From positions 62,001-126,000 of the forward strand of contig JAKQIT010000048.1 of the NCBI GenBank assembly GCA_029556915.1: a stretch of 64,000 bases of DNA, read 5' to 3'. Both the position numbers and the translations under genes were made by a program. Numbering within the stretch: position 1 is the stretch's first letter; every line of letters begins with the position of its first letter. The notes beneath the pieces were generated by a model. That model was not told the origin of the DNA. It did no database searches and was given only the letters and a program-made list of their open reading frames with translations. This document shows positions 8,241 to 23,725 of this stretch, piece by piece. This stretch comes from Pseudomonadota bacterium. GTDB lineage: Bacteria; Pseudomonadota; Gammaproteobacteria; Burkholderiales; Methylophilaceae.

Positions 8241-8349
8241 AATTAAATCCTTTATTGTAAGGGGGTAATAATTGTAAGTTAAATAACCCACCCAATTATA
8301 TATAAATACTTGCGCGACTAATATTCACCTTTAGGTAATTTTGATTAAT

Positions 8350-8368
8350 TGCGACTGACAATTGCGAC
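8350..8368. promoter_or_regulatory. Possible degenerate operator half-sites
   Basis: TGCGAC occurs twice (8350 and 8363) separated by seven bases, the same spacing as in the island palindrome, but both halves face the same way instead of inverted. A third GCGAC is at 8314. Located upstream of the GIY-YIG operon. This may be a weak member of the WYL-linked operator set or coincidence. Confidence 0.3.
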
Positions 8369-8404: not shown

Positions 8405-9295
8405 TTATAAAAGCTTACTTTCAATGGTATTGATTAACATGGTTTTATCAATAGTTATAGAAAAATATTGATGTGAAATTAGGTGATCTTTAAGCGCAGT
8501 TAATAAAAGTTTTGTTTGACGTGTTTTTATTAAAGCATAATAAATATAATCCAACTCTATTTCACTGCGATTCATGAAGATAAAATCAGCTCCAAACTTT
8601 TTAACGCAGAAAATAAATGCTTTTCTCTTTAACCATAAATCATTACCTGCAAAGTCTGGAGTGAGATGTGGGTTTTTTAATGCGATTTTCTGAATAATTT
8701 CGGCATCTGGTTTGTATTTAGCAAGGTACAAAAATGAAAAATATACTGATGGAAATACGGCATAAAATATGGATGAGGTTTGTTCCGCACCTCTTGCTTT
8801 CTTAGAAAGTATACTTTGAAAATTTAAGTCACTCCCTCCCACTAACCACCAGTTATAGTATGACGTTAATGTTTCATCAGCACATTCGATTAAGTAATCA
8901 CTATTGCTGATAAATTGAGTCCAACAGTTAATATCTTGATATAGCCTGGCATCACTGAGGGATACACTTAAGCCATCCTGATTTAGTTTGAGTTTCTCAA
9001 GAAATGTTTGAATAACATTGGTTGAAAAGTGTTCGTTGAGGATTTGGTAGATTGCTTTACTTGGATGAGCCAAAAGCATTTCCCAAATTCGACAAAAAAT
9101 AATATCAACAAATTCATTAACTCTTTTGAATTGTGCTGTATTGTTTAGCGCTACAGGAAGGCATTTACTTTCTTGAAAGTATGCAGGCATCCACACACTA
9201 ATTGACTTTGAATCCTCTACAATAAATTGATCAATAAAATTTTCTGATTCGGCAATGCTGAATGCATAACCACTTTGTGTACAATATCCGCACAT
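8405..9295 (-). CDS. Hypothetical protein with N-terminal CxxC
   Basis: 296 residues, not recognised. It begins with Met-Cys-Gly-Tyr-Cys, a CxxC pair at the extreme N-terminus, and is otherwise Leu/Phe/Ile-rich and probably helical, without signal peptide or transmembrane segments. It stands alone on the minus strand. Its upstream region holds a perfect copy of the island operator (9344-9362), about 50 bases before the ATG, placing it in the inferred WYL-controlled set. GGATAAA lies 12 bases before the start. Confidence 0.6.
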   Translation of the reverse strand: MCGYCTQSGYAFSIAESENFIDQFIVEDSKSISVWMPAYFQESKCLPVALNNTAQFKRVNEFVDIIFCRIWEMLLAHPSKAIYQILNEHFSTNVIQTFLEKLKLNQDGLSVSLSDARLYQDINCWTQFISNSDYLIECADETLTSYYNWWLVGGSDLNFQSILSKKARGAEQTSSIFYAVFPSVYFSFLYLAKYKPDAEIIQKIALKNPHLTPDFAGNDLWLKRKAFIFCVKKFGADFIFMNRSEIELDYIYYALIKTRQTKLLLTALKDHLISHQYFSITIDKTMLINTIESKLL

Positions 9296-9343: not shown

Positions 9344-9362
9344 TGCGACTCTCAATGTCGCA
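9344..9362. promoter_or_regulatory. Island operator, perfect copy (TGCGAC-N7-GTCGCA)
   Basis: A perfect inverted repeat of six-base arms around seven bases (TCTCAAT). It lies between the start of the 8405-9295 gene and the end of the WYL gene. Only the minus-strand gene at 9295 has a start nearby, so it probably controls that gene. The same pattern recurs at 10483, 10510, 16702 and 21118. Confidence 0.7.
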
Positions 9363-9471
9363 GAGCAGGTTTGGTTTTGAATTCAGAGTTTTGTATTAAG
9401 ATAAGCATAGTTAGACTTAAGTAGCTATTTTTTGGCTTTTATGGCTAGCTATAAATTCATTACCTATAATA

Positions 9472-10449
9472 TTAATGACTGTCTATTAACTTCCCCAAAG
9501 TAATGGGAAGAATAACTTCAACTTCATCTCCAAATCCGCGTAACCACCAACGCAATTGAGAATTGTCATTAATCGTAGCTGACACCATTAAATGACCTTG
9601 CTCATCAACCGTAATGACTTGATCTTTGCTTAGGGGTGTTTCATACAAATGCTGCCCAGCGGCATAGCTAAACTTTGCTTTAAACGCTATTTCACCATAA
9701 TCATTAAAACCCAACGCGCCAGATTCAGAATAGCTTTTAAGATTAAATCCCAATGGCCTAATGCTCGCAATATTCAGTAGCTTCACCTCTTTAAAACGAT
9801 GCAAGGCAAACAGGCGTATATCTTGGTACTTAAATACCGTCGCCACCAGATAACTAACAGCACCGCGCAATATGATGCCAAGTGGATGCAAGGTGAAAGC
9901 TTTATCGGCTTGATCACTGCGTGAACTATACAGTACATCAATTTGCATTTCTTGCAGCAGTGCTTCGTCAATTAGCGCGATGATGGTTACGTTAATTTCT
10001 GGCGCTAACAGCGGTTGACCGGCAAAGGCTACTGCAATTTTATCAGGCCAATGCGCTAAGGTTGAACTGGACTCACTCGATTTAAGTACATGGTCAGCCG
10101 CATCAAAATAGGGCTTTAATTGGCTTATCATGCCTGATGGCATGAGCTTAACTAAATACTGCTCAGCCAGCTTAAAAGTTAATGCTTGGCTTGGCGATAA
10201 ACCAGGCAAATCAAAACTGGGCGCATCGATAGACCAACTCCAACCATAAGGCTTTTCTCGCTCATCAGCGACTAGTGGAAATAGGGCCGACATGGCCTGT
10301 AAGTCACGCTCTACCGTGCGCTTAGTCACTTGGTAGCCCTCGCCAAGAATGCGCTCCATCAGTTCTCTGGCGGTTACTTTACGTGGATAGCGTGGAATAG
10401 ATCTAAGCATCATCCATTGCCTCAGCATTAATTCATTGGGATTGGCCAT
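9472..10449 (-). CDS. WYL-domain transcriptional regulator (HTH + WYL)
   Basis: About 325 residues. An N-terminal winged helix-turn-helix (TARELME...VTKRTVERDLQAM, near residues 25-65) is followed by a linker and a WYL domain near 185-230, where the signature reads SYLVA, and a C-terminal WCX-like region. This layout matches BrxR/CapW-type regulators that repress phage-defence operons and respond to nucleic acid or nucleotide ligands. Start could be ATG 10449 or GTG 10461; neither has a strong ribosome site. It is divergent from the AAA+ ATPase operon, with two tandem operator palindromes between them, which suggests autoregulation. Confidence 0.85.
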   Translation of the reverse strand: MANPNELMLRQWMMLRSIPRYPRKVTARELMERILGEGYQVTKRTVERDLQAMSALFPLVADEREKPYGWSWSIDAPSFDLPGLSPSQALTFKLAEQYLVKLMPSGMISQLKPYFDAADHVLKSSESSSTLAHWPDKIAVAFAGQPLLAPEINVTIIALIDEALLQEMQIDVLYSSRSDQADKAFTLHPLGIILRGAVSYLVATVFKYQDIRLFALHRFKEVKLLNIASIRPLGFNLKSYSESGALGFNDYGEIAFKAKFSYAAGQHLYETPLSKDQVITVDEQGHLMVSATINDNSQLRWWLRGFGDEVEVILPITLGKLIDSH

Positions 10450-10482
10450 ATTGTTGTTCACCGATGTATTTTAGTAGCTCAA

Positions 10483-10501
10483 CACGACAGATTGAGTCGC
10501 A
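10483..10501. promoter_or_regulatory. Island operator, tandem copy 1 (WYL/AAA+ divergent promoter)
   Basis: CACGAC-N7-GTCGCA, matching the island consensus with mismatches only in the two outer bases of the left arm. It lies 34 bases upstream of the WYL gene's ATG and is followed by a second palindrome 27 bases away centre to centre. Position in the regulator's own divergent promoter is typical of autoregulation. Confidence 0.65.
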
Positions 10502-10509
10502 TGATTCAT

Positions 10510-10528
10510 TACGACATAATATGACGCA
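10510..10528. promoter_or_regulatory. Island operator, tandem copy 2 (WYL/AAA+ divergent promoter)
   Basis: TACGAC-N7-GACGCA, one mismatch per arm and exactly the same seven-base spacer. It overlaps an upstream in-frame ATG (10521) of the ATPase frame, which argues that the ATPase really starts downstream at 10578. Confidence 0.55.
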
Positions 10529-10577
10529 TGTGCATGTTTTAATCAATACATTCAAAACACACTCACGTAAATACTCA

Positions 10578-12665
10578 ATGACACCAACCAACTACACATC
10601 AACCTCAGCGCAGGCAAACGAAATATTTCCCATTGAGTTAAAACGTCTTTGGTTGATGCGTATATTGGTTAAACTAAATGGGCTACGACGTTTGTTTGAT
10701 GACCCAAGCTACTATCTTTTAAGCTTTATTGGGGTAGAAAAAATCAATCTATCAAAAGCAGAAATGGTAAAGCTTGGCAAACAATTAAACGATGAGCATT
10801 TAGCCGCAGAGCGCAACGCAACCGTTACCGTTGGCGGCGATTTAGCTAATAATATCCACAGCTTGGCAAATTTAATCGGTTTAAATTTAATTGAGCAGTC
10901 AATTTTAGGTTTTGTCATTTTGGCAAATAATGACCGTGTGTTAAGCGATTGCGCAGAAACCATTAACACGCCTAATTTTATGAGCATCACCCGAGCGCTG
11001 GCCGAAATACTCAACATAGAAGAAGTGCTTATTAAAGAAGCTTTGCATCCAAATGCGCCATTAGCAAAAATGGGCATTGTAAAAGTAGATGTTGAAACAC
11101 CTTACTTGCGAGGTAAGTTTCGCTTTAGCATTGAAGACTTGCCCGTGCTCATGCTACAAAAAGACATGCCGATATTGCAAATATTAAAAGGCGCATTATC
11201 GCTAGCGGAGCCAAGTAAACTGGGCTTGGATGACTTTAGTTACGTGCAAAAAGATGTAGCAATTGTGCTGCCTTACCTACGTCAAGCCCTGCATCAGCAA
11301 GCTCAAGGGGTGAATATTTTATTTTACGGCCCACCAGGCACAGGTAAAACACAATTAGCCAAAACCATCGCTCACGAATTAGCCGCTTCATTGTATGAAG
11401 TTGCGGTTGAAATTAATACCTCAGCTAAAAGTGGCCCATCACGCTTACAAGCTTACCAACTAGGCCAATCCATTTTGGCAAAGCATAGCGCACTGATATT
11501 GTTTGACGAAGTACAAGATATTTTTGATGACGGCGACGCAACTAAAGCAGGCCATGCCAGCACAGCGCAAACACGCAAAGCACTGATAAACCAACTGCTA
11601 GAAAACAATCCCCTACCGGCTATTTGGGTGAGCAATAGCATCAGCTGTTTTGATGATGCGTTTATTCGCCGCTTTGATCATATTATTGAAGTTGGCTTTC
11701 CATCTGAGCAACAGCGCCAAACCATTTTAAACACGCACTGCCAAGCGCTACAACTATCGCCCAACGTTATTCAGCATATGGCGCAAACCAAGGCACTCAG
11801 CCCCGCCATTATTGAGCGTGCCGCTAAGGTGACGCGCTTAATATGCCAACAACAAAACAATACTGATACAGAAGCCGTATTTACACACTTGGTACATAAC
11901 ACCTTACGTGCGCAAGGCCACACACCAAACAAATTAAACACCCATGCACTAAGGTTTGACCCAAATTGGATAAATGCAGACGCCCCCATTACCCCGCTAA
12001 TGGAATATGTACTGGCCGATGGCAATATTCGCCTGTGTTTATCTGGCCCGCCCGGCACAGGCAAAACTGAGTTTGGCAAATGGCTAGCCACACAAGCCAA
12101 CCGCCCGCTGCATGTGCGAAGAGCATCGGATATTCTTTCAAAATATGTAGGCGGAACTGAGGAAAATTTAGCTTTAGTCTTTAGACAAGCAGAGCGCGAA
12201 AACGCAGTGCTATTACTAGATGAAGCTGACACCTATTTAAATGACCGCAATGACCTTAAACATAGCTGGGAGGTGAGCAGCGTAAACGAAATGCTAGTGC
12301 AAATGGAGGCTTTTAACGGCGTACTTATTGCAACCACTAATCGTTTAGAAGTAATGGACAGTGCTGCAATGCGCCGCTTTGACTTTAAAGTGCATTTTGA
12401 TTATTTAAAACCCAATCAAATTACTGCAATGTTACAAAACTTGGTTAACGCGCTGGGCTTAACCCCCAATGCAGCCGCGTGGTTAAACATCAACCACCAA
12501 TTAAAAGCATTAAGTCATATAACGCCTTCTGATTTTTCACTATTACAAAGGCAAATCATCATGTTAAGAAAAACACCCTCACTAGCTGATTTATATAGTG
12601 ACTTATTGGCAACCTCTCAAGGTAAGCAAAGTCAGCTCAACAAACCCTTTGGCTTTGTACACTAA
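10578..12665 (+). CDS. Tandem AAA+ ATPase
   Basis: About 695 residues from ATG 10578; in-frame ATGs at 10464 and 10521 are less likely because the operator pair lies there. A helical N-terminal domain (about 1-235) of unknown type precedes two AAA+ modules. Module 1: Walker A GPPGTGKT near residue 250, Walker B LILFDE near 305, RRFDH finger. Module 2: Walker A GPPGTGKT near 490, Walker B VLLLDE near 545, RRFDF finger. The Cdc48/ClpV-like tandem suggests a hexameric remodelling motor. The next gene's ATG (12712) follows 46 bases after the stop, so it is operonic with the 5'-nucleotidase and GmrSD-like genes. The target is unknown. Confidence 0.85.
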   Translation: MTPTNYTSTSAQANEIFPIELKRLWLMRILVKLNGLRRLFDDPSYYLLSFIGVEKINLSKAEMVKLGKQLNDEHLAAERNATVTVGGDLANNIHSLANLIGLNLIEQSILGFVILANNDRVLSDCAETINTPNFMSITRALAEILNIEEVLIKEALHPNAPLAKMGIVKVDVETPYLRGKFRFSIEDLPVLMLQKDMPILQILKGALSLAEPSKLGLDDFSYVQKDVAIVLPYLRQALHQQAQGVNILFYGPPGTGKTQLAKTIAHELAASLYEVAVEINTSAKSGPSRLQAYQLGQSILAKHSALILFDEVQDIFDDGDATKAGHASTAQTRKALINQLLENNPLPAIWVSNSISCFDDAFIRRFDHIIEVGFPSEQQRQTILNTHCQALQLSPNVIQHMAQTKALSPAIIERAAKVTRLICQQQNNTDTEAVFTHLVHNTLRAQGHTPNKLNTHALRFDPNWINADAPITPLMEYVLADGNIRLCLSGPPGTGKTEFGKWLATQANRPLHVRRASDILSKYVGGTEENLALVFRQAERENAVLLLDEADTYLNDRNDLKHSWEVSSVNEMLVQMEAFNGVLIATTNRLEVMDSAAMRRFDFKVHFDYLKPNQITAMLQNLVNALGLTPNAAAWLNINHQLKALSHITPSDFSLLQRQIIMLRKTPSLADLYSDLLATSQGKQSQLNKPFGFVH

Positions 12666-12711
12666 TCGATTAGTATTTAATTTAAACAAACAACTTAAGC
12701 CAATAACAATA

Positions 12712-13641
12712 ATGCGCACAACCGTAAACAAATCTAACCTAGCTACACCACAAGCACTTAATAAACTGGTTGTTGCTATTTCATCACGCGCTTTGTTTGA
12801 TTTGGTAGAAAGTCACCAAGTGTTTACCACCCAAGGGGTTGATGCCTACCATTCTTACCAAATTGCCAATGAAGATAAAGCGCTAGCACCTGGCATTGCC
12901 TTTAACATGGTTAAAAAGCTATTAGCACTTAATGACCGTGACCCACAAAACCCCAGAGTTGAAGTGATATTACTTTCTAGAAACAGTGCAGATACAGGCT
13001 TACGGGTTTTTCACTCTATACAGCACCACGGCTTAAACATTAGCCGCGCAGCATTTACCAGAGGGCGCAGCACATACCCTTACGTATCGGCTTTTGGTGC
13101 CCATTTATTTTTATCGGCCGACGCCAACGATGTTGCCGAAGCCTTAACTGAAGGCTTTGCTGCCGCAACCATTTTACCTTCTCATATTAGCAGTAACGAT
13201 AACCAACAGTTACGCATCGCATTTGATGGCGATGCCGTGTTATTTTCAGATGAAGCAGAGCGCGTATTTCAAGAACAAGGCCTAAAAGCCTTTACTGAAA
13301 GTGAAGTAAAAGCCGCTAAAACCCCGTTATCTGGCGGCCCATTTAAAGCCTTTTTAGCATTGCTGCACCAAATTCAAAGTGAATACCCAACAGAAAGCTC
13401 ACCCATACGCACCGCACTGGTTACCGCAAGGGCAGCCCCAGCGCACGAGCGCGCAATTAGAACATTAAGAGCTTGGAATATCCGCATAGATGAAGCCATA
13501 TTTTTAGGTGGGCTAGATAAAGGCCCATTTTTAAAAGCGTTTGATGCAGATATTTTCTTTGATGACCAAACTAAACATTGTGAATCAGCAAGACTGCATG
13601 TGGCTACTGGGCATGTGCCTAGTGGTGTTAAAAATAAATAA
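12712..13641 (+). CDS. 5'-nucleotidase family protein (PF06189-like)
   Basis: 309 residues from ATG 12712 (a long upstream extension overlaps the ATPase gene and is unlikely). It resembles the cytosolic 5'-nucleotidase family: AISSRALFDL near the N-terminus, a VILLSRNSADTGLRV segment, and FDGDAVLFSDEAE as the HAD-like acidic motif. The later FFDDQ segment is a second HAD-like acid pair. Such enzymes dephosphorylate nucleoside monophosphates. Placed between a tandem AAA+ ATPase and a GmrSD-like protein, it might lower nucleotide pools or process a signal nucleotide during infection. That is inference; the family also has housekeeping members. Confidence 0.78.
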   Translation: MRTTVNKSNLATPQALNKLVVAISSRALFDLVESHQVFTTQGVDAYHSYQIANEDKALAPGIAFNMVKKLLALNDRDPQNPRVEVILLSRNSADTGLRVFHSIQHHGLNISRAAFTRGRSTYPYVSAFGAHLFLSADANDVAEALTEGFAAATILPSHISSNDNQQLRIAFDGDAVLFSDEAERVFQEQGLKAFTESEVKAAKTPLSGGPFKAFLALLHQIQSEYPTESSPIRTALVTARAAPAHERAIRTLRAWNIRIDEAIFLGGLDKGPFLKAFDADIFFDDQTKHCESARLHVATGHVPSGVKNK

Positions 13642-13661
13642 ATTTAAAAGGATTTATATAA

Positions 13662-15449
13662 ATGTCTTATCAAAGTATTTCACTTCGGGAAGCAATTGAT
13701 AATATTAATACATCAGATTGGGTATTGCCTGCTACGCAAAGGCCATATGTATGGGGTGGAAGATATGAAGCTGAACTTTATATTTCAAAGTTATTCGATA
13801 GTTTGTTTAGAGAGTACCCTATAGGCGTAATAATTCTATGGCCAACAGACACGGTGGTTCCATTTCGAGAATTTATAGATCATTATAAAGATTCTGAAAT
13901 TTCAAAAGCAATTGAGGATGAAGGTAAGTGGGGTAACAAAAAATCACTGGTTTATGATGGACAGCAGAGACTTCAAACGCTGTATTCTTGCTTGAAGTAC
14001 ACATTTAACAATAGAGTTTTAACGTTTGACTTACTTTGGGAAAAAAATATTGGTGATGATGATAATTTAACTAGTGGATTCACTTTTCACGAACGCTCTA
14101 ACGTTTTACCTTGGAACGAAATCAGATTGAACGAGCTTTTCGGAAAGAATATTGATCAGGAAATTAAGGTCAGAAAAGAAATATTTAAAAAAGCATTAGA
14201 TAACTCCGTTTCTTTAACGGATGAGAGTCAAGAAGTAATAGAGAAAAATTTAAGTCAATTATGGAAAGTCTTTGTTACTACAGATAAAAAATCAATTTCT
14301 TATTTCTCAATTCCTAGTAATTCAGATATTGAAGTTAATGAGATATTCCAACGATTAAACTCAAGTGGGGTGCCTCTATCTCAGGCCGATTTATTACTCT
14401 CTCGTATTAAAGAGAAATCCCCAGATTTTGAAGAAAAACTAATTAATGCATCCGCTGAAATCAAAGGAAAGTCAGGATTTGAAATCGATCAATATTTGAT
14501 TATTCAATTACTTTTCTTAATAGTCAAAGGAGAGGTAAGACTTGAAGCTGTCAGAGTCAACAAGAATGAATTAAACGCATTTGTTTCGGCATGGGATCAC
14601 TTGGCTCGGCCACTGCAAGACTTCTTTATCGAGTTTCTTGGGGAGCAGTTTAAGATAAATCATGAAGCAATAATACCAAGTAAAAGAGCCTTATTCCCTC
14701 TAATAATATACTTCTTTAATATATATAAACACGAATACACATTTAAGAAAGATGTGCATGAAAAAAGTGCCATCCTCACAAAATTAATGCAATTTTTTAT
14801 TAAATCTCAAATAAATAATTGGGATTTACAAAGATACATCGATAAGTTTACAAGAGTAATTAATGAACCATTTGAGAACCATGAAATTGCAGCTAAGCAA
14901 AAAGAGCCAGAGAGTTTTAATAAGAGAATGGAGATTGTTGACTTTCCATTAGAAAAAATAGAAGCTTACATAAACGAAGGAAAAGAACGCGATGCAAATA
15001 TGACCGAAGAGCGTTTCATAAACAAACGCCTATTTGCTCTTAAAATTTTATGTTTTGATAAATCCTATAATTTTTCACCTTCAAAAAGTCGTTTCAGTCC
15101 AGAGATTGACCATATTTTCCCTAGAAAATTGAAAGCGCAGTCAGAAAACTTTGCGAGTGAAGTTGACATTTTGTGGAATTTGCAACCTGTAAGAGGCGAA
15201 ATTAATGGATACAAATCAAATTATCATCCAAAAGATTTTTTTAATGATAAGTTATATAACTCTTCAGGTGACTTAATCAGTGGCGGTAAGTATTTTGGAG
15301 AATATGACTTTGTTCCTGATAAAGAATCATTGGAATGGGATAACCCCTTAACATTTATAGAAAATCGACGTTCGAAAATGTTGCAAAGATTAAAGAGTAG
15401 GTATGATCTATCTATAGTCGAAAAAGCTAACACAGCTGATAAAATATGA
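13662..15449 (+). CDS. GmrSD-like protein (DUF262 + DUF1524/HNH)
   Basis: 595 residues. The N-terminal DUF262 (ParB/sulfiredoxin-like fold) shows RPYVW near 27-31 and the DGQQR nucleotide-binding motif at 99-103. The C-terminal DUF1524 HNH nuclease shows EIDHIFPR near 481-488 and a WNLQP...Asn segment near 504. This is the architecture of GmrSD-type type IV restriction enzymes and of BrxU, which cut glucosylated or otherwise modified phage DNA. AAAAGGA lies about eight bases before the ATG. It is third in the AAA+/nucleotidase operon, and its stop overlaps the start of a decayed DUF2779 gene (ATGA), a further sign that it came as part of a multi-gene unit. Confidence 0.87.
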   Translation: MSYQSISLREAIDNINTSDWVLPATQRPYVWGGRYEAELYISKLFDSLFREYPIGVIILWPTDTVVPFREFIDHYKDSEISKAIEDEGKWGNKKSLVYDGQQRLQTLYSCLKYTFNNRVLTFDLLWEKNIGDDDNLTSGFTFHERSNVLPWNEIRLNELFGKNIDQEIKVRKEIFKKALDNSVSLTDESQEVIEKNLSQLWKVFVTTDKKSISYFSIPSNSDIEVNEIFQRLNSSGVPLSQADLLLSRIKEKSPDFEEKLINASAEIKGKSGFEIDQYLIIQLLFLIVKGEVRLEAVRVNKNELNAFVSAWDHLARPLQDFFIEFLGEQFKINHEAIIPSKRALFPLIIYFFNIYKHEYTFKKDVHEKSAILTKLMQFFIKSQINNWDLQRYIDKFTRVINEPFENHEIAAKQKEPESFNKRMEIVDFPLEKIEAYINEGKERDANMTEERFINKRLFALKILCFDKSYNFSPSKSRFSPEIDHIFPRKLKAQSENFASEVDILWNLQPVRGEINGYKSNYHPKDFFNDKLYNSSGDLISGGKYFGEYDFVPDKESLEWDNPLTFIENRRSKMLQRLKSRYDLSIVEKANTADKI

Positions 15450-15634
15450 AAAATGTTCGCTCCCTCACCAAATCCCGCTTCAAACTCGCACTTGAATGCC
15501 TGACTAAGCTGTATTATTCAGGCAAGCCAAATGAGTAACGTGACACCCTATCTGAAAATGCTTTTATAGCAACTTTGGCTGAGGGTGGTCTAGTCGGAAC
15601 GCTGACAAAGTTTCGCTATTATGAAAGAGTGTAA
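15446..15634 (+). pseudogene. Relic of a DUF2779-type nuclease gene (5' fragment)
   Basis: Starting at an ATG that overlaps the GmrSD-like stop, the frame codes a DUF2779-like N-terminus (LTKSRFKLALEC-TKLYY). It meets TAA at 15536, and in the same frame continues with ATLAEGG and a short tail before a second TAA at 15632. The internal stop and the loss of the remaining about 400 codons show a truncated, dead gene. An intact DUF2779 gene of a different subtype lies at 17865-19343. Confidence 0.65.
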
Positions 15635-15668
15635 ATCCTTGAAAGATATACTCTTGAAAATATTGGTA

Positions 15669-16127
15669 TCACACAGTTAATTTGATGCCAGCGTATTCAA
15701 GCCGAGCTTCTACAAGTCCATTTTCCCAATTCCAGTTTGGGGGCATAGTTGTTTTGAACTTAAGCACATGATCAAGATGATGAGCCTCTTCTTTAGTGAT
15801 ATGGGCGATAGCTAAGTATTTTTCTAACATATGGGCAACGTCATTTTCGACTTTAGTGAGATCTTTGTTAGAGTCCAAGCCTTCCCAAAACATTTCAAAT
15901 GCCCGATTACGTAATAGTGCGCAGGGTACAAGGTGTTCTTTATGTCCGCCGCCTTTTAATGATTTTCCTAGGTTCCGTGGGTTACCAACAAGCACATCAA
16001 ATAATCTTGAGTGCACTCTAACTTCGCGTTTTGGATCATCTTTTTGCTCTTCCCATAAATGCCTTAAAACCCACGCCAATCGCTCATAAGTACGGAAATG
16101 CAATTCTTCTGCGGTAAATTTACTCAT
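15669..16127 (-). CDS. Hypothetical protein, possibly a small HNH-like protein
   Basis: 152 residues, rich in His, Glu and Arg, with no signal or membrane segment. A GHKEHLVPC segment near residue 83 and a later ITKEEAHHLD segment loosely recall His-containing nuclease folds, but I cannot assign a family. It is 68 bases downstream of the 16196-16654 gene on the same strand and is probably in its operon, downstream of the operator at 16702. Confidence 0.55.
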   Translation of the reverse strand: MSKFTAEELHFRTYERLAWVLRHLWEEQKDDPKREVRVHSRLFDVLVGNPRNLGKSLKGGGHKEHLVPCALLRNRAFEMFWEGLDSNKDLTKVENDVAHMLEKYLAIAHITKEEAHHLDHVLKFKTTMPPNWNWENGLVEARLEYAGIKLTV

Positions 16128-16195
16128 ATTATTATTTCTTTAGACAAAAATTTATAATCAAATGTATTTGGTAACACCGTTAACAGTATTATTAT

Positions 16196-16654
16196 TTAAT
16201 CACAGACAACCTTTATATGCCATCCATTTATCCTACGGCCTAGTGATTCTGTCCATTGAACCCATCGTAGTAGCCACTGCTTATTGACTCTCACAAGTTC
16301 TATTGTAACTTCGAGCTTTTGGCTAGGAATTCCGATAGGAAATATGTCGGTTAGCATACTATCACCAACTAAAAATTGAGCCGTTGATCTCACCTGCAAA
16401 ATCACTTCATCAGTACCAGTAAGTGACAACGCAGTTTCTAGCACTCGTCCAATATCTTCAACTGTAACAATACCCGAAGGGACAGCAATCATACCAGTCG
16501 ATTTAATTATTTTGTCTGGTGAGACTTGTAAAACTATGCTGAAGTCAGTTTTTGATTTAGTCAGATAAGCTAAGAAATCTTTATCAATAACTGCTAAATT
16601 TTCTGATAAACATATTTTATATTCCAGTTTATTTTGATTCATTTCGTTGTGCAT
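16196..16654 (-). CDS. Hypothetical protein
   Basis: 152 residues, not recognised; it looks like a soluble alpha/beta protein with a Trp-rich C-terminus. The ATG at 16654 is preceded by an AGGGGG ribosome site at short spacing, better than the internal ATG at 16642. It is divergent from the 16776-19343 operon, and the shared 121-base promoter region contains the island operator. Confidence 0.55.
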   Translation of the reverse strand: MHNEMNQNKLEYKICLSENLAVIDKDFLAYLTKSKTDFSIVLQVSPDKIIKSTGMIAVPSGIVTVEDIGRVLETALSLTGTDEVILQVRSTAQFLVGDSMLTDIFPIGIPSQKLEVTIELVRVNKQWLLRWVQWTESLGRRINGWHIKVVCD

Positions 16655-16701
16655 ATTTACCCCCTAAGTGCGAATAACCAACTTGCATTAAACACATCCC
16701 A

Positions 16702-16720
16702 TGCGTCACATTGTGTCGCA
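16702..16720. promoter_or_regulatory. Island operator at a divergent promoter
   Basis: TGCGTC-N7-GTCGCA, one mismatch from a perfect palindrome and extended by A...T on both sides. It sits between the divergent genes starting at 16654 (minus) and 16776 (plus). A possible plus-strand promoter has TTGACT at 16735, so the site would lie just upstream of the -35 box on that side. Confidence 0.65.
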
Positions 16721-16775
16721 TAGCGGCTTTAAAATTGACTTATATTAGTTTTATTTAAAAATAGAGTAAGTTTTA

Positions 16776-17507
16776 ATGTCCAATAAATCAGAAGTCACTC
16801 GGCAAGACCAATACCAACTAATCGAGATTAGAAGACTTAAAAAGAGTTTCGCTTCATTTAGTATGTACCAAGCATTTCGTACTGAAATGCTAAGCCTGGC
16901 ACTTCAGCCATGGTTTAGGGGTGCATATCAACACCAAGCTAATATTGAAAACATTCCAGAAAGTGTTTGTGTAATACTAGGCTACAAAAAAAGCGGCGGG
17001 TTGAATCAATTAATTTTACTTGCATATGAAGAACTAGAGCATTCAATCAATATGGAAGGCAAACAATTAACTGATGACATAGGTGCAATAACCACTTGGA
17101 TACAAAAGTTTAAACCAATCTGTTGGGATGATTGGTTGATGACGCCAAATCTTTACTTAATGCAACTGAGGTCTAAAAAATTTCTGCCAGCCTTAAACGC
17201 TAAATCGGATCCTTGGATAGATGCAGTATTGAAAGAAACGAGAGGGGTATTGATGTGGACGTATCAGTTTGTTGAGATAGTGAGAATGATTGCAAACATT
17301 TCATTTTCTGAAGCCACTCAGTTAAGTAGAGGGTGGATACTAAGAGATTCAAAAGTTAATGAAATATTAGGTAATGTAATATATGAGCCTACAAAGCAAA
17401 ATCTGCTTGAAATTATAAAAGAACGAACATTGGGTATCGAGCATTTAGGTGCCCCAGATTATATTTTTGCAGATTGGTTATCGAGGCATTATCAATATGA
17501 AGTCTAA
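16776..17507 (+). CDS. Hypothetical protein, first gene of the DUF2779 operon
   Basis: 243 residues, helical, without recognised domain, signal peptide or membrane segment. It has a conserved-looking Trp-rich middle (CWDDWLMTPN) and an acidic, aromatic end. Its stop overlaps the start of the next gene, which begins at 17497, so the two are translationally coupled and may act together with the DUF2779 nuclease downstream. Preceded by the operator at 16702. Confidence 0.6.
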   Translation: MSNKSEVTRQDQYQLIEIRRLKKSFASFSMYQAFRTEMLSLALQPWFRGAYQHQANIENIPESVCVILGYKKSGGLNQLILLAYEELEHSINMEGKQLTDDIGAITTWIQKFKPICWDDWLMTPNLYLMQLRSKKFLPALNAKSDPWIDAVLKETRGVLMWTYQFVEIVRMIANISFSEATQLSRGWILRDSKVNEILGNVIYEPTKQNLLEIIKERTLGIEHLGAPDYIFADWLSRHYQYEV

Positions 17508-17859
17508 GGTGGGTATTTTCTTTGTTGTGAAAGGACCACTGCTTTATGACATAGCGTCATTAGAAGAAGTCGAACAATCTCAAGATGCCATCAATTTTAG
17601 CGGTCACTATGAATACTGGGAGTCAGTTAGACCAAAAAGCAATCTAGAATTACTTTTTAAACAGCATGCTTATGATTACCTTCCACGTGGACGGGTGATT
17701 TATTTTAATAAAACAAAAAGCTTCAAACTTTATGCTGACCGATGTATTTCAACCGTAGATTTAGATCTAATTACCACAGTGTTTCAATTAACTTCATTTA
17801 AACTAGTACGTGACGAAAATTATCAATGTGCTACTTGTAACCCAAATTCCTTGGAATAA
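17497..17859 (+). CDS. Hypothetical protein coupled to its neighbours
   Basis: 120 residues from the ATG at 17497 inside the end of the previous gene (11-base overlap); the frame is open further upstream but without a better start. The C-terminus has a CxxC pair (CATC) that could bind metal. It ends five bases before the DUF2779 gene. A small accessory subunit is plausible. No family recognised. Confidence 0.6.
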   Translation: MKSKVGIFFVVKGPLLYDIASLEEVEQSQDAINFSGHYEYWESVRPKSNLELLFKQHAYDYLPRGRVIYFNKTKSFKLYADRCISTVDLDLITTVFQLTSFKLVRDENYQCATCNPNSLE

Positions 17860-17864
17860 AAAAC

Positions 17865-19343
17865 ATGAACAACACATCACAAAAACGTCACGGTTTATCC
17901 AAATCTCGCATCTTACTACACCGCCAATGCCCAAAACGCTTGTGGCTTAAAGTACATCATCCAGAGTTAGAAGAAATTGATGATGGCAACCAAGCGCGTT
18001 TTGATACAGGCACATATGTGGGTGAAATAGCGCAACAGCTATACCCTGAGGGCGTATTAATTGATGGTGGCAATTTAGCTGAAGCAGTAAAGAGAACGAA
18101 AGAAATATTGAAAGGGGATAAACGCCCCATCTTTGAAGCTACATTTCAAAGTGATGGTTTGCTCATTCGTGCAGACTTACTATTGCCTAACCAAGATGGT
18201 TATAGAATGGTTGAGGTTAAATCTTCAACCAGCGTTAAAGATTACCACTTAACAGATGCCGCTATTCAAAAATGGGTTGCGCAACAAGACGATGTACCCC
18301 TCACGAGTGTGGAAATAGCCCATATCGATAATACGTTTATTTATCCTGGTGAAAATGATTATCAAGGTTTACTGAAATACGTAGATGTCACAAATCAGAT
18401 CTTAGACATGACCCGTGAAGTTACTGAATGGATAAGTGCAGCTAGAAACACGCTAACTGAGAGTGAGCCTTGCATAGAGGTTGGTAAACAATGTAACGAG
18501 CCATTTGCTTGCTCCTTTATGGGTTATTGCTCACCATTAGCAGAAGATGCATCTGAATTTCCTCCAGAAATATTACCTAGAGTGGGTGCCTTGGCTGCCA
18601 AGCTTCGCTCTGAGGGTTTTAATGATTTGCGTGATGTACCTAAAGAGCGACTTACAAATGCTAATCATCAACGTGTGTGGCGTATTACTAAAAGTGGTGT
18701 GGCTGAACTTAGTTCAGAAGTTAAATCATTACTTGCCGCACTACCATATCCACGCTATTACATTGACTTTGAAACTATCAATCCTACTGTGCCTATTTGG
18801 GCAGGCACTAGGCCCTATATGCAAGTGCCGTTTCAATGGTCATGCCATACAGAAGAGTCGAAAGGTGTGATCAAGCATGATGCGTATTTAGCAGATGGCA
18901 AAAGCGATCCCCGCCGATTATTTGCTGAAAGCTTACTTGAAGTGGTTGGCAATAATGGACCAATTCTCGTGTATAACGCTCCATTTGAGCGTAGTCGTAT
19001 GCAAGAGTTGGCTAACTATTATGATGATTTAAAAAATCTTTTAGAGGCGGCTATCAATCGCATTGTAGATTTGCTGCCAATTGCACGCAATCACTATTAC
19101 CACCCTGAAATGCGTGGCTCTTGGTCAATCAAAGCCGTATTGCCTACCATTGCACCAGATTTAGCTTATGATAATTTAGAAGTGGCAAATGGCGGAATGG
19201 CACAAGAGGCATTTTCTGAAATGATGCAACTTGACGTGACAAGTGAACGCTACCATCAGTTATACGATGCCTTATTGAAATATTGTGAGCGTGATACTCT
19301 GGCGATGGTTAGAATTGCGCACTTCTTTGAAGGTGTTGGTTAG
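17865..19343 (+). CDS. DUF2779 protein: Cas4-like PD-(D/E)XK domain plus DnaQ-like domain
   Basis: 492 residues. The N-terminal half looks like a RecB/Cas4-type nuclease: C22 in RQCPKRLW, VEVKSS (PD-(D/E)XK core) near residue 115, and C210-x5-C216-x5-C222, which with C22 could ligate a 4Fe-4S cluster. The C-terminal half is DUF2779, a DnaQ/RNase T-like exonuclease: YYIDFET near 298 and YCERDTLAM near 471 keep the catalytic acids. Thus two nuclease centres in one chain. Third gene of an operon with two unknown proteins under the island operator. Likely acts on foreign DNA or RNA; substrate unknown. Confidence 0.82.
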   Translation: MNNTSQKRHGLSKSRILLHRQCPKRLWLKVHHPELEEIDDGNQARFDTGTYVGEIAQQLYPEGVLIDGGNLAEAVKRTKEILKGDKRPIFEATFQSDGLLIRADLLLPNQDGYRMVEVKSSTSVKDYHLTDAAIQKWVAQQDDVPLTSVEIAHIDNTFIYPGENDYQGLLKYVDVTNQILDMTREVTEWISAARNTLTESEPCIEVGKQCNEPFACSFMGYCSPLAEDASEFPPEILPRVGALAAKLRSEGFNDLRDVPKERLTNANHQRVWRITKSGVAELSSEVKSLLAALPYPRYYIDFETINPTVPIWAGTRPYMQVPFQWSCHTEESKGVIKHDAYLADGKSDPRRLFAESLLEVVGNNGPILVYNAPFERSRMQELANYYDDLKNLLEAAINRIVDLLPIARNHYYHPEMRGSWSIKAVLPTIAPDLAYDNLEVANGGMAQEAFSEMMQLDVTSERYHQLYDALLKYCERDTLAMVRIAHFFEGVG

Positions 19344-19404
19344 TTAAGTTGGTGATTTTGGATGTTTAGTGGTTCATATTTTGCATGTTTAAATGGGAGG
19401 TTAA

Positions 19405-20415
19405 TCAAACTACTTCCCACTCATTCATAAGGAGATTGATTCGATTCAAATACTGGACTGTGTTTTGAATATCAGGGATTTTATTTTCTGTCTGAATATA
19501 GCTTTCAATATAACCAACAACCATTGATTTTCCGAACCCACTTCTTTTAGGCTCCAAAATTTTAATACCATCCGAAAGTGGCATATTTTTTAAAAATTTC
19601 GTCCACTTGGCACGTAGCCGCTTAAAATTATTTTTGTCATTTACTCTGATTTTAAAATTCAGTCGAGATTGACAAAGCTGAATATACAGAGAGCACTCCT
19701 GCTTTTGCATCATAAAAATGCCACCATACGTAGGCTTTGGATCAGAATATGACTTTATAGTCCATTTGCCTTGAAGATTCCCAGCCGCATCTAAAGCCTT
19801 GTAAAAACCTCTCCAACTGGTTGATTTATCCCATTGATCATGACTTGTATTTTCATAGGCTAGCGATTCCGATTCTACGTTACCCCAGTACTCTCTAAAA
19901 TCAATTAGGATTTGATTTCCCCCATTACTTAGCACCTCAAGAATGTCACGTCTAATAAAAGGTTTATAGTTCTGAGCCTTTGCGCCATCATAGTCTTTTT
20001 GGTCTTTAGTTTTGAGATAGACGCCCAATATATTGCTATCGTTAAATCCGAGCGATTCGATTTTTTTTCTATATTGCTCAAGCTGCTTGCCATGAATACC
20101 TGCCCCAACTTTATCTTCTATGATAATTGCTAAACTATTAACAGGGGGATTCTTAGTAGTTAGCACCTCATTAAAAGTCGTGTTTATCAAACACAAAATA
20201 TCAATCTTAAATTTCTGCCTATAAATATTTATTGATTCGATAGCTGGTATATTTTTTTCAGGGAATTTATTGGTTAGTGCTTCTAAAAAACGCTTTCCAA
20301 TAAAATGCATTTCATTGTCTTGATGCTGTTTATCTGCCCAAGCCAACAACCAGCAGATAAAGGCATCTTGCGATAACTCTTTGGTTGCGTATTTGAATAA
20401 ATTTGGATAGCTCAT
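19405..20415 (-). CDS. PD-(D/E)XK nuclease-superfamily protein (PDDEXK_4-like)
   Basis: 336 residues. The opening NLFKYATKELSQDAFICWLL is typical of the PDDEXK_4 group (helix with the first conserved Glu and Asp). The core KIDILCLI (Asp) and IIIEDKVGAG (Glu-x-Lys) near residues 70-110 complete the metal site, and QLEQY follows. The C-terminal part is unrecognised. Start ATG 20415 follows GCGAG. It is 13 bases downstream of the 20429-21073 gene and shares its operon and operator. Confidence 0.8.
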   Translation of the reverse strand: MSYPNLFKYATKELSQDAFICWLLAWADKQHQDNEMHFIGKRFLEALTNKFPEKNIPAIESINIYRQKFKIDILCLINTTFNEVLTTKNPPVNSLAIIIEDKVGAGIHGKQLEQYRKKIESLGFNDSNILGVYLKTKDQKDYDGAKAQNYKPFIRRDILEVLSNGGNQILIDFREYWGNVESESLAYENTSHDQWDKSTSWRGFYKALDAAGNLQGKWTIKSYSDPKPTYGGIFMMQKQECSLYIQLCQSRLNFKIRVNDKNNFKRLRAKWTKFLKNMPLSDGIKILEPKRSGFGKSMVVGYIESYIQTENKIPDIQNTVQYLNRINLLMNEWEVV

Positions 20416-20428
20416 TTTTTCTCGCTTC

Positions 20429-21073
20429 TTATTTTTCAGTCGTTACCATTAGAACCAAATTCGTCTCTTTTAAAATCAAAAATTTCGTGACATTAACAAT
20501 AGTTAGTAAGTCGCGACCTTTGAAGTGATTTGCTAACGTTTCGTTTATTTGATTAAAGTTTTTACTAAATTTGCCCTTGCAATTAAACCATACTGCCAGA
20601 CTCAATATATCTTCTGGTTTTTGAGATGAAATATTACTCGGATTAGTAAGCGTAGCATATTTGCCCTGCTGCATGACAGTTTGTAAATCAGCTAAGTCAG
20701 TATAGTGGTTACCCATCCCACTAGGTAAAACAACAAGACCTAACACTAAAATTAAAAACATTGAAAGCGTATCAGAATTAGGTGTAGCCCTGCATGTGAT
20801 GTTTATCGAATGTAACCCATTCGTTAATTTTTTATTGCTATCAAAACAAAGTAGAGTGGGCTTGAAACCAACTTTTATTTCTGACAAATTGATGGGGTAA
20901 ATATACAAATCAGCATTCAGTTCTAATGCTTGATCACTCTGTAACACTTCAAGTGAGTCAATATCAAAGTTTGGGTAATATTTTTTAATACTACTCGCAA
21001 ATGTTTTCACCCACTCTAGATTTTCAATCTCGAAGCTTCTCTTGCTTCCATCCGTGATAATTTGTACCTTCAT
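20429..21073 (-). CDS. Hypothetical protein with possible tubulin/FtsZ-like C-terminal fold
   Basis: About 214 residues from ATG 21073 (AGGA upstream); the frame is open to 21118, but that part lies at the operator. The N-terminal half is unrecognised. In the second half the string DLADLQTVMQQGKYATL resembles the FtsZ 'DFADVRTVM...G.A' segment, after a hydrophobic strand and a PSGMGN loop. No GGGTGTG nucleotide-binding loop is seen, so if related to FtsZ it has only the C-terminal domain. The match is short and the call tentative. Coupled to a PD-(D/E)XK nuclease gene. Confidence 0.5.
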   Translation of the reverse strand: MKVQIITDGSKRSFEIENLEWVKTFASSIKKYYPNFDIDSLEVLQSDQALELNADLYIYPINLSEIKVGFKPTLLCFDSNKKLTNGLHSINITCRATPNSDTLSMFLILVLGLVVLPSGMGNHYTDLADLQTVMQQGKYATLTNPSNISSQKPEDILSLAVWFNCKGKFSKNFNQINETLANHFKGRDLLTIVNVTKFLILKETNLVLMVTTEK

Positions 21074-21117
21074 ATCATAGTGTCCTGTTTTCGTGTTTAT
21101 ACACAATAAGCTCCGCA

Positions 21118-21136
21118 AGCGACACCATGTGTCGCA
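21118..21136. promoter_or_regulatory. Island operator at a divergent promoter
   Basis: AGCGAC-N7-GTCGCA, one mismatch from a perfect palindrome. It lies between the minus-strand 20429-21073 gene and the plus-strand DnaQ-like gene at 21178. A TTTATATT stretch about 16 bases downstream could be the -10 region of the plus-strand gene. Confidence 0.65.
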
Positions 21137-21177: not shown

Positions 21178-21777
21178 ATGAGGCGCGTTTATGTTTTTAT
21201 AGCTACTACTGGATTGGAGCTAGATGCAAGGGTAATAGAAATATCTGCAATTGAAGAATTAGATGGAATACTCTCGGGAGTTTGTTTTAATCAGTTCATC
21301 AACCCAGATGGTACACACATGCATGACGCGGCTTTTGCCGTAACAGGCTATGATGATGATTTTTTAAAACAGTATCCTTTATTTTCAGAGATTGCTGAGG
21401 CGTTCTTGTGCTTTATTGAAAGTGCAGAGTTTATCTGCTGGGATGTCAATTATGATTTGGCTTATCTAAATCGTGAGTTACGACTTTTAGGTAAACCTTC
21501 CATTAAATTTAGAAAAAATTGTGCAATTGCCCCTGATATTAGGGTCACTGTAAAAAAAATGTTCCCCAAAATGACTTGCTTGCGCGATAGGCTATATAAA
21601 TATTTTGATGTGAATGGAGATGATTGTTCGCTATCTTGGACTCAGTCCAGTTGCCTATGTATGGCAAGGCTGTATCCCAAAATTAAAAATCCAAGCTTTA
21701 AGCTATATTGGCGGGTTCAGTTTATATCTTGGGCGAGTTATTTACGCCTCAGAATATACGATTTGGCAAAATTGTAG
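21178..21777 (+). CDS. DnaQ-fold exonuclease-like protein lacking catalytic residues
   Basis: 199 residues resembling the DnaQ/epsilon exonuclease fold: beta-strand VYVFIATTGLELDARVIEIS at the start, a phosphodiesterase-like NYDLAYLNREL in the middle, and a C-terminal ExoIII region. The Exo I motif normally reads D-x-E-TTGL; here both acids are replaced (FIATTGL). In the Exo III region neither the His nor the Asp is evident. Only the Exo II Asp survives. So it is probably a binding or inhibitory protein, not an active nuclease. A strong AAAGGAG ribosome site precedes ATG 21178. It is single on the plus strand and under the shared operator. Confidence 0.72.
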   Translation: MRRVYVFIATTGLELDARVIEISAIEELDGILSGVCFNQFINPDGTHMHDAAFAVTGYDDDFLKQYPLFSEIAEAFLCFIESAEFICWDVNYDLAYLNRELRLLGKPSIKFRKNCAIAPDIRVTVKKMFPKMTCLRDRLYKYFDVNGDDCSLSWTQSSCLCMARLYPKIKNPSFKLYWRVQFISWASYLRLRIYDLAKL

Positions 21778-22063: not shown

Positions 22064-23458
22064 TTAACAAAAATTTAGTATATCATCTAACTTATCACCC
22101 AATTTATACCAAGCATCGCGTTTTTCATCGGCATATTCGTCTAGCAAATAAACTCGGTCAACTTTTGTTCCAATAACATGATTTTGACAAAGATTAATTA
22201 CGTCTCTACTTACTTTAAGTTTTTGCATCATCGTCGTGCCCGTTCGGCGAAGGTCATGAGGAGTCCACTCACCTGTATCGCTCAAAACCAGACTATCATT
22301 TTCTACTCTAGCTTGAAGTTTTTTATTGCGATTTTTAAATTTAATTTGTCGGTCTCCAATTTGCTTTGTAGCTGATTTTATGCATACATGACCTGGTTTA
22401 TATCTCGCAGGGAAAACCCATCGAGTATCGCCAGTTAGTTTGTGTAGTTGCTCAAATTTATCTAATACAAAGTTTGACAAGTAAATTAGTTGATCATATT
22501 TATCCCCATCTTCCCCTTTTACATTTTCCTTTGGTATGAACCAAGTACGTGCTTCAAAGTCAACGTGCTTCCATTCAGTCATTAGGAGTTCGCCAATTCG
22601 ACAAACTGAACCAAGGCAAATCCACATGGCTAATTGAACCTCTTTTTTTAGAGGGCGTTCGGCTTCATATTTATTTGGCGCTTCTAAATAATTTTTTGTA
22701 GTAGTGTTAAAGATATCTTTGAGTTTAATAATCTCATCAATACTTAAAAAGCGTGTGCGCTCTTTTGTATAACCTTTGGGTAAGAGTTTCTTTATTTCAA
22801 CTAGCTCTGATGGATTGCCCTCTGTGAGTAATCCTCTCCATGGTTTTCGTTTCCCAGCCCATCGCAACATTTGACCAATGTCTTTTGAGAGTTCGACGGC
22901 AGTTGCAATTTTATTGTCAGAAATTATTGACCTGTAGAGATTTCGCAGGTGATTTTCAGATAAATGACGCAGTTCTAACTCTCCCAACTTGGGAATGGCA
23001 TGCTTACCAAATGATTGAATAATGTATTTATTTCCATCTCGACGACTCACGCCATCTTTTAACCAAGCATTGTAAAGATCATTAAAAGTTAAGCTTTGAG
23101 TTCGTTTATTTTCATCGTTAAGAATAACCTTTTCGATCGCAAGTTGGGCTTCAATTTTGCTAGCTTTTTTGCTGGCTCGAGGATCTATCCCTGACTTAAT
23201 CAAATCTCTCGCTTTATTACGCTCTTCACGTATTTCAGTCATGTCGTTTGCAGGGTAAGCCCCACAATAGAACCACGCCACCTTCCCGTTCCATTTGAAG
23301 GCATATTTAAAGTGAACAGAGACAGAGTTAGAAAAGCGTACTTCACCGGAAAGTCCATCACTATCACTTAACAGGTCCCCCTTCCATTCTTGCTTAACAG
23401 CATCGAGTTCTTTGACCGTCCACTTTGAGCCTTTTCCAGATTTAGGATATCTAGTCAT
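22064..23458 (-). CDS. Tyrosine recombinase (P4-type integrase)
   Basis: 464 residues. The N-terminal DUF4102-like arm-binding domain (GLSGEVRF...WFYCGAYP, about residues 35-75) is followed by a core-binding domain and a catalytic domain with VCRIGELL (first Arg, near 285), HDLRRTG (His-x-x-Arg, near 400), QNH, and the nucleophile Tyr in VDRVYLL near residue 437. All catalytic positions seem intact. AAGG precedes the ATG. It starts 220 bases from the tRNA-Arg fragment and reads away from it, so it is the island integrase and is likely still functional. Confidence 0.92.
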   Translation of the reverse strand: MTRYPKSGKGSKWTVKELDAVKQEWKGDLLSDSDGLSGEVRFSNSVSVHFKYAFKWNGKVAWFYCGAYPANDMTEIREERNKARDLIKSGIDPRASKKASKIEAQLAIEKVILNDENKRTQSLTFNDLYNAWLKDGVSRRDGNKYIIQSFGKHAIPKLGELELRHLSENHLRNLYRSIISDNKIATAVELSKDIGQMLRWAGKRKPWRGLLTEGNPSELVEIKKLLPKGYTKERTRFLSIDEIIKLKDIFNTTTKNYLEAPNKYEAERPLKKEVQLAMWICLGSVCRIGELLMTEWKHVDFEARTWFIPKENVKGEDGDKYDQLIYLSNFVLDKFEQLHKLTGDTRWVFPARYKPGHVCIKSATKQIGDRQIKFKNRNKKLQARVENDSLVLSDTGEWTPHDLRRTGTTMMQKLKVSRDVINLCQNHVIGTKVDRVYLLDEYADEKRDAWYKLGDKLDDILNFC

Positions 23459-23677: not shown

Positions 23678-23725
23678 TGGCTACGAACCAAGGGGTCAGG
23701 AGTTCGAATCTCTTCGGGCGCACCA
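23678..23725 (+). other. Attachment site: 3' fragment of a tRNA-Arg(ACG) gene
   Basis: 48 bases match the second half of a tRNA-Arg: anticodon loop CTACGAA (anticodon ACG at 23683-23685), 3' anticodon stem, variable loop, T-arm with TTCGAAT, acceptor strand CGGGCGC, discriminator A and CCA. The D-arm and 5' acceptor strand are absent; homology stops just before the anticodon stem. This is the displaced tRNA end left after island integration. A terminator follows, as expected for the original tRNA locus. CCGAAGAGA at 23624 is inverted relative to TCTCTTCGG in the T-arm, possibly relevant to recombinase binding. Confidence 0.8.

Follow-up and report, generated by a model that had tools for sequence, protein, structure and literature searches.

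Several transcription factors with a WYL domain have been characterised, and the published accounts of them are cited here as excerpted. DriD is an activator triggered by single-stranded DNA (ssDNA) with several target promoters, including those of didA, bapE, recJ and dnaG (PMC12340889). A preprint describes DriD promoters in which the site lies over the -35 position at a fixed distance from the -10, the -35 is poor and the region is bidirectional, and DriD is described as not regulating itself. SiwR of Mycobacterium smegmatis is a homodimeric WYL activator associated with genotoxic stress, with a 19-bp imperfect palindrome upstream of the -10 (PMC10693628), and the mycobacterial PafBC is a heterodimeric, ssDNA-triggered WYL activator of the DNA-damage regulon that uses sigma adaptation. 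BrxR and CapW, the WYL proteins best studied in connection with defence, repress the systems beside them (BREX and CBASS loci) and are described as doing so until ssDNA binds. The pEFER BrxR has two boxes within its own island, the Acinetobacter BrxR covers about -51 to -27 of a promoter reported with canonical -35 and -10 boxes (PMC9122589), and CapW sites overlap the -10. Here we describe a WYL regulator and a shared palindromic operator, TGCGAC-N7-GTCGCA, on an integrated island of a Methylophilaceae bacterium (GenBank assembly GCA_029556915.1, contig JAKQIT010000048.1). The stretch analysed, called the window below, comprises 64,000 nucleotides (contig positions 62,001 to 126,000).

The island is an 83.2-kb element integrated in tRNA-Arg(acg) at contig positions 2495-85725. 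Each of its ends carries the same 32-bp repeat, and its right end forms the first 23.7 kb of the window (1-23725). A sequence-only reading of the window had named five copies of the palindrome, at 9344, 10483, 10510, 16702 and 21118. All five are present at these positions: 9344 is perfect, 16702 and 21118 have one mismatch each, and 10483 and 10510 have two each. Shuffling the window 100 times by dinucleotides gives an expectation of 0.11 copies at one mismatch or fewer, where the window contains four; at two or fewer it contains seven (1.55 expected); at three or fewer there is no excess (24 versus 18.6 expected). A matrix built from other loci, with the window excluded, ranks the five island sites as the top five of the window (26.0, 22.3, 21.5, 20.1 and 17.5 bits), above a copy at 48223 (15.5 bits). 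The same reading had stated that no full copy lies inside genes or in the core half of the window, which holds for perfect copies only, since 48223 is a one-mismatch copy within a core-half gene and 57383 a two-mismatch copy within another. Its description of the sites as always intergenic holds only if downstream start codons are taken. The longest open reading frame (ORF) of the AAA+ gene, whose likely start is 10578, includes both 10483 and 10510, and the longest reading of the ORF at 20429, with a likely start at 21073, touches 21118. It was correct in placing operators between divergent genes in three of the four locations and in finding two copies before the WYL gene. A weak copy at 8363 (three mismatches, 7.6 bits) lies upstream of the gene at 7545-8291; an operator role for it is improbable.

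The palindrome recurs beside relatives of the WYL gene. The dataset consists of 52 loci around WYL relatives, 12 from named genomes and 40 further stretches; a partial second match (L013) and seven weak matches (E >1e-7) were left out, the short loci L014-L055 were replaced by longer stretches or by the window, and the 36 places besides the window's own were all retrieved. The set includes the related groups L002-L004 and L010-L012 and two near-identical WYL islands, L078 and L080, about 0.8 Mb apart in one genome. Perfect copies number 24 in these 52 loci, where 179 other permutations of the half-site have a mean of 0.08 and a maximum of 2, and copies at one mismatch or fewer number 58 (control mean 3.4, maximum 15). 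Every other spacer length from 0 to 20 yields 0-1 perfect copies. At least one copy with no more than one mismatch is found in 34 of the 52 loci; when these are grouped by WYL score, the fractions are 10/12, 10/13 and 11/15 in the higher groups (31/40 together) versus 3/12 in the lowest. Strong sites, defined as those of at least 16 bits, number 87, with at least one in 44 and at least two in 24 of 53 loci, the window included. Only 22 of the 87 fall deep within an ORF call, versus 79% of random positions, the calls being those of a crude script that gives spurious ORFs in GC-rich loci.

Seven plasmid loci, chosen from 20 records found and kept outside the training of the matrix, tell the same story: nine strong sites occur in five of the seven, none of the sites within a gene listed in the record, and shuffled matrices give 0-0.025 sites per locus. 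The plasmid loci with sites are from Methylomonas koyamae, Marinobacter shengliensis, Diaphorobacter sp., Vibrio echinoideorum and Rhodoferax antarcticus, and those of Halomonas and Marinomonas have no site at the strong threshold. The Diaphorobacter plasmid (L172) carries three annotated WYL genes in 6 kb, adjoining AAA+ and DUF2779 genes. The check proposed by the sequence-only reading, a search for the motif beside orthologous WYL genes, was therefore clearly positive both in the 52 loci and in five of the seven plasmid loci. Among 399 genomes of the order, the WYL gene is found in 31, DUF2779 in 44 and both in 18, where about 3.4 joint occurrences would be expected by arithmetic. Among the DUF2779 loci compared (30 of the 47 places found, with the best site anywhere in the locus taken), 9 of the 16 from WYL genomes have a strong site, versus 1 of the 14 from genomes without WYL, one locus scored as without WYL (L148) having an adjoining WYL-like gene. 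The operator pattern is real, conserved and specific, and its recurrence indicates that it very probably belongs with the WYL protein of the island, which is predicted to bind it.

In this genome the operator is confined to the island. Six unique sites occur in the whole genome (3.28 Mb) at one mismatch or fewer, three of them in the island. A refined degenerate pattern, TRCGWCR-N5-YGWCGYA, has two perfect matches genome-wide, both in the island, and 13 matches at one mismatch or fewer, namely four island sites, 48223 and eight others (reversed control, 26). These eight matches outside the window all lie within ORFs of at least 60 amino acids, two of which are short (61 and 71), and a chromosome-wide regulon is not supported. 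Left of the window, in contig 1-62000, no operator reaches 10 bits. For comparison, perfect copies were counted in 24 of 35 genomes with the WYL gene and in 30 genomes without a reported WYL relative; they occur in 11 of the former (24 sites) versus 2 of the latter (two sites), with reversed-pattern totals of 15 and 8, respectively. Fifteen of the 24 sites lie in WYL loci. The other nine all lie within ORFs, one (L160) with a -10-like match of 4 of 6 and the rest with at most 3, and a regulon outside the WYL loci of these genomes was rejected as well. The central proposal of the sequence-only reading, a single operator that is linked to the WYL protein of the island and stands before several of its operons, is supported, and the off-island matches examined are all in ORFs.

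The promoter anatomy around the sites was compared in 163 flanks of the 87 strong sites. A TAnnnT hexamer starts at offset 9 after the motif in 21 flanks and at offset 10 in 26 (47 of 163 in total), and in 0-6 at any other offset. By a softer criterion (the final T and at least four of six matches to TATAAT), a -10 is present in 73 of the 163 flanks: 55 of the 84 that face a gene and 18 of the other 79. The background, roughly 5 per offset, would account for about 9 of these 73. A -35 hexamer would lie within the motif, and the match to TTGACA is below random (1.95 versus 2.45 of 6). An extended -10 that would let these promoters work alone was rejected, because TG before the -10 is not enriched relative to nearby positions (10 of 73 flanks). 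In the window, a -10 is present on all seven gene-facing sides and absent on the three without a gene start ahead of them (right of 9344, right of 10483 and left of 10510), and each of the tandem operators before the WYL gene serves one direction. This is the geometry of DriD promoters, with the operator over the -35, a fixed distance to the -10 and a poor -35. From this anatomy we read the operators as activator sites, and activation by the WYL factor is quite probable.

The WYL protein has Pfam WYL and WCX matches above cut-off. We read the N-terminal helices and strands of its AlphaFold model (mean predicted local distance difference test, pLDDT, of 85) as a winged helix-turn-helix (wHTH), and the protein as a whole has the wHTH, WYL and WCX architecture of DriD-like activators. 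DriD is the nearest solved structure in a single-sequence search (E about 4e-6 to 1e-5). With a 40-member profile against solved structures it again comes first (1.8e-12), followed by PafBC (2.4e-11), with CapW and BrxR chain 7qfz at 0.0021 each, and a fold search with the model puts DriD at the top (E 1e-14) and PafBC second, with CapW/BrxR at about 2e-7. Of the characterised WYL proteins, DriD is the one closest to the island protein, at low identity and with a PafBC profile score only slightly worse; BrxR and CapW are its best matches neither by sequence nor by fold. The recognition helices of the island protein and DriD have RTx(E/Q)R in common. The sequence-only reading had implied a repressor of the BrxR/CapW type, which is not supported, since sequence and fold are nearer to the activators DriD and PafBC, the operator is near that of DriD and the promoters look activator-dependent.

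The excerpted DriD consensus is ATACGAC-N7-GTCGTAT (PMC12340889), and the island operator has the same CGAC-N7-GTCG core palindrome. One genome encodes a DriD with 89% identity over the part queried; next to its driD gene the site reads TGCGACAGAAACGGTCGTA, one half of which is like the island operator. A site with at most two mismatches is present in 7 of 15 loci of DriD relatives (L096-L110). The strict pattern TACGAC-N7-GTCGTA has only two sites in eight genomes with DriD relatives, with no promoter evident by eye, and the comparison with DriD therefore rests mainly on the published consensus.

These data may be explained by an island-borne, DriD-like homodimeric WYL activator that controls about seven units via the shared operator, which we consider likely. 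The homodimer would bind TGCGACA-N5-TGTCGCA and, lying over the -35, would bring RNA polymerase to promoters with a -10 and no -35, in both directions where the genes diverge. By analogy with DriD, the factor would be triggered when its WYL domain binds ssDNA, whether this comes from damaged DNA, from a replicating phage or from incoming DNA, and such a trigger is somewhat likely. About seven units, including the WYL gene, the AAA+/5'-nucleotidase/GmrSD, DUF2779 and PD-(D/E)XK operons and others, would then be turned on together, perhaps in the service of defence or damage response.

Several observations weigh against this explanation. In the fold alignment, identity to DriD is only about 18-20%, and the fold match has low global template-modelling (TM) scores (0.38-0.41), as do the matches of the fold search in general (about 0.3-0.4). 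The profile alignment to DriD extends only from position 146 onward, with the wHTH outside it, and the RNA-polymerase contacts of DriD (Arg120-122/Pro125, three-helix bundle) show no clear conservation in a region that aligns poorly. An operator faces the WYL gene here, whereas DriD is without self-regulation. Eighteen of the 52 WYL loci have no copy at one mismatch or fewer, and many loci come from related lineages, so that the counts are not independent. At two mismatches or fewer there is no excess genome-wide (102 sites versus 117 for the reversed pattern), and 10483 and 10510 are therefore not special by mismatch count alone. Finally, a repressor site can also overlap the -35, as the excerpted account of the Acinetobacter BrxR indicates.

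Such an overlap would suit a repressor of the BrxR/CapW type that uses the same operator and protein and keeps RNA polymerase from the seven promoters until its release by ssDNA or a different ligand. The defence-linked BrxR and CapW do repress, and operators at the WYL gene's own promoter are what many repressors have. However, a repressor role becomes less likely because promoters without a -35 and an extended -10 leave little to repress, whereas canonical boxes are reported for the BrxR promoter. The fixed distance from operator to -10 and the closeness of sequence and fold to DriD and PafBC also argue for activation, and in the excerpted accounts the BrxR site differs in sequence and CapW sites overlap the -10. 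On balance we regard repression as unlikely.

A regulator other than the WYL protein might also own the palindrome, given that the loci were chosen by the WYL gene and another co-inherited regulator could fit. This is considerably harder to reconcile with the rarity of the motif beside the lowest-scoring WYL relatives (3/12 versus 31/40 loci) and with the strong site in only 1 of 14 DUF2779 loci without WYL. Moreover, among the 19 window genes searched, the integrase (in two loci) is the only recurring recognisable DNA-binding gene besides WYL, and the palindrome of the nearest WYL activator characterised so far is almost the same (PMC12340889, as excerpted), so that we hold another regulator to be very improbable. 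Chance clustering of a short palindrome picked by eye would account for the lack of excess at three mismatches in the window and at two in the genome, and for the copy of equal quality in the core gene at 48223. It was rejected on the four copies at one mismatch or fewer against 0.11 expected, on the strong recurrence beside WYL relatives, including plasmid loci not used to define the motif, and on the first ranks given to the five sites by a matrix trained without the window; its probability is negligible. The DriD-like activator is the explanation followed below.

The predicted units are listed in Table 1, their operon extents being inferred from gene spacing and strand. Homologues of the DUF2779 protein are found in 24 of the 52 other loci, and the first gene behind a strong site encodes DUF2779 in 12 loci and the AAA+ protein in 12. 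An ORF in L070 (8349-9587), excluded from the DUF2779 count, starts like DUF2779 and runs into the WYL gene, and may be a fusion or a decayed remnant. In single loci or small groups the first gene is DnaB-like helicase, DnaQ-like, FtsZ-like, histone-deacetylase-like, ClpX-zinc-finger, M41-peptidase-like or GIY-YIG, and some first genes have no Pfam match. DnaB-like helicase-domain proteins stand behind operators at L057:6707-8368, L004:13202-14170 and L069:7499-8317, and part of the first of these is homologous to the window gene at 16776. FtsZ-like proteins (L078:6789-7727 and, weakly, L063:10615-11406) and the FtsA (SHS2)-like protein of the window (16196-16654) are encoded directly behind operators, hinting, by analogy, that cell division might be controlled as it is in the response run by DriD. 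A phage origin of the regulon genes was rejected: PHROGs matched the WYL protein once and seven further proteins not at all, and among phage records the AAA+ protein has a homologue in one only (MT835507.1:17722-19476; 38.6% identity across 85% of the query, E 1e-20). Ten proteins were scanned in the part of the island left of the window; noted there, at L128:5280-8897, L114:7282-11551 and L113:345-8093, are a large DUF3584 protein, a methylase and ResIII pair resembling type III restriction, a PRTase_2/TRSP protein, and genes of PP2C and kinase-like type.

Table 1. Putative operators, genes of the predicted regulon and right end of the island, in window coordinates
Feature	Position	Strand or orientation	Remarks
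Operator O1, perfect	9344..9362	faces CxxC gene 8405-9295 (-)	TTAAAT from 10th base on gene side; other side without -10
Operator O2	10483..10501	faces WYL gene	TAAAAT at 10th base, WYL side only
Operator O3	10510..10528	faces AAA+ operon	TTTAAT at 10th base, AAA+ side only; perfect match to refined pattern
Operator O4, bidirectional	16702..16720	divergent genes	TAAAAT and TTTAAT at 10th base, either side; perfect match to refined pattern
Operator O5, bidirectional	21118..21136	divergent genes	TATATT (9th base) and TATTGT (10th base), either side
CxxC-bearing protein, unit 1	8405..9295	-	no Pfam, PADLOC, NCBIfam or PHROGs family found
wHTH-WYL-WCX regulator, DriD-like	9472..10461	-	start probably at 10449 or 10461; matches Pfam WYL and WCX; DriD nearest among solved structures
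Double AAA+ ATPase, unit 3	10578..12665	+	homologue directly behind strong site in 12 other loci
5'-nucleotidase family protein	12598..13641	+	PADLOC candidate PDC-S08
GmrSD/DUF262-type protein	13662..15449	+	PADLOC HEC-05
Conserved protein, second gene of unit 4	15669..16127	-	no Pfam match
SHS2/FtsA-like small protein, unit 4	16196..16654	-	
First gene of unit 5	16776..17507	+	L057 homologue has DnaB-like helicase domain
Small protein, unit 5	17449..17859	+	homologue in one other locus
DUF2779 protein, unit 5	17865..19343	+	weak Cas4-like and RNase H-like matches; homologue directly behind strong site in 12 loci
PD-(D/E)XK nuclease-family protein, unit 6	19405..20415	-	
First gene of unit 6	20429..21073	-	homologue behind site also in L058
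DnaQ-like protein, unit 7	21178..21777	+	homologues behind sites in L058 and L065
Tyrosine integrase of island, right end	22064..23458	-	
Island right end, tRNA-Arg(acg) 3' end	23694..23725	+	identical copy 83.2 kb leftward, contig 2495-2526

More tentatively, such islands and plasmids might carry a portable, LexA-independent response to DNA damage or ssDNA, in which a DriD-type sensor-activator and one conserved operator fire several operons together; the chances of this are somewhat short of even. The operons fired together would include nuclease, ATPase, replication-like and cell-division-like genes, and the ssDNA could come, for example, from phage replication or DNA entry, a possibility we hold with the same reserve. 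If this is true, a subfamily with the operator and promoter geometry of DriD, at work in mobile multi-operon regulons, would join an SOS-independent damage response to defence islands. An operator followed by a -10 at the 9th-10th base would then be a simple sequence tag that predicts co-acting island genes, including DUF2779. In the open-access literature (top search matches, with subscription papers mostly outside) we found no report of this operator, of a link between DUF2779 and WYL, or of a DriD-type regulon on mobile islands. The sequence-only reading had considered control of several operons by one WYL protein to be new. In this general form the claim does not stand, as DriD has several promoters and BrxR two boxes; what appears to be new is a multi-operon regulon of the DriD kind on mobile islands and plasmids.

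Comparison with the known systems may place the island regulator among them. Like BrxR and CapW, it is a WYL regulator on a defence island with palindromic sites that, as in the Acinetobacter BrxR, overlap the -35, and ssDNA sensing, predicted here by analogy, would be a further likeness; unlike it on the reading preferred here, these are repressors, the operator of the Acinetobacter BrxR differs in sequence, and the sequence and fold matches to both are clearly weaker. PafBC, a WYL-WCX activator, forms the next group by sequence and fold, but it is a heterodimer with sigma adaptation, whereas the island has one gene and a symmetric palindrome. SiwR, an activator with a 19-bp imperfect palindrome upstream of the -10, resembles the putative island activator, and differs in controlling, in the excerpted account, one adjacent operon. 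DriD differs in having targets such as didA, bapE, recJ and dnaG rather than a cluster on a mobile island, in the second base of the operator (A in DriD, G here), in the low identity (18-20%, as above) and in not regulating itself. Nevertheless, DriD has the same wHTH-WYL-WCX layout and is the nearest solved structure, and its operator has the same register around the CGAC-N7-GTCG core. Both have the site over the -35 at a fixed distance from the -10, a poor -35 and a bidirectional promoter region, and both have several target promoters, in DriD some of them for nucleases and a primase. The mix of nuclease, replication-like and division-like genes in the island regulon parallels the DriD targets, which comprise a division inhibitor, an endonuclease, recJ and dnaG.

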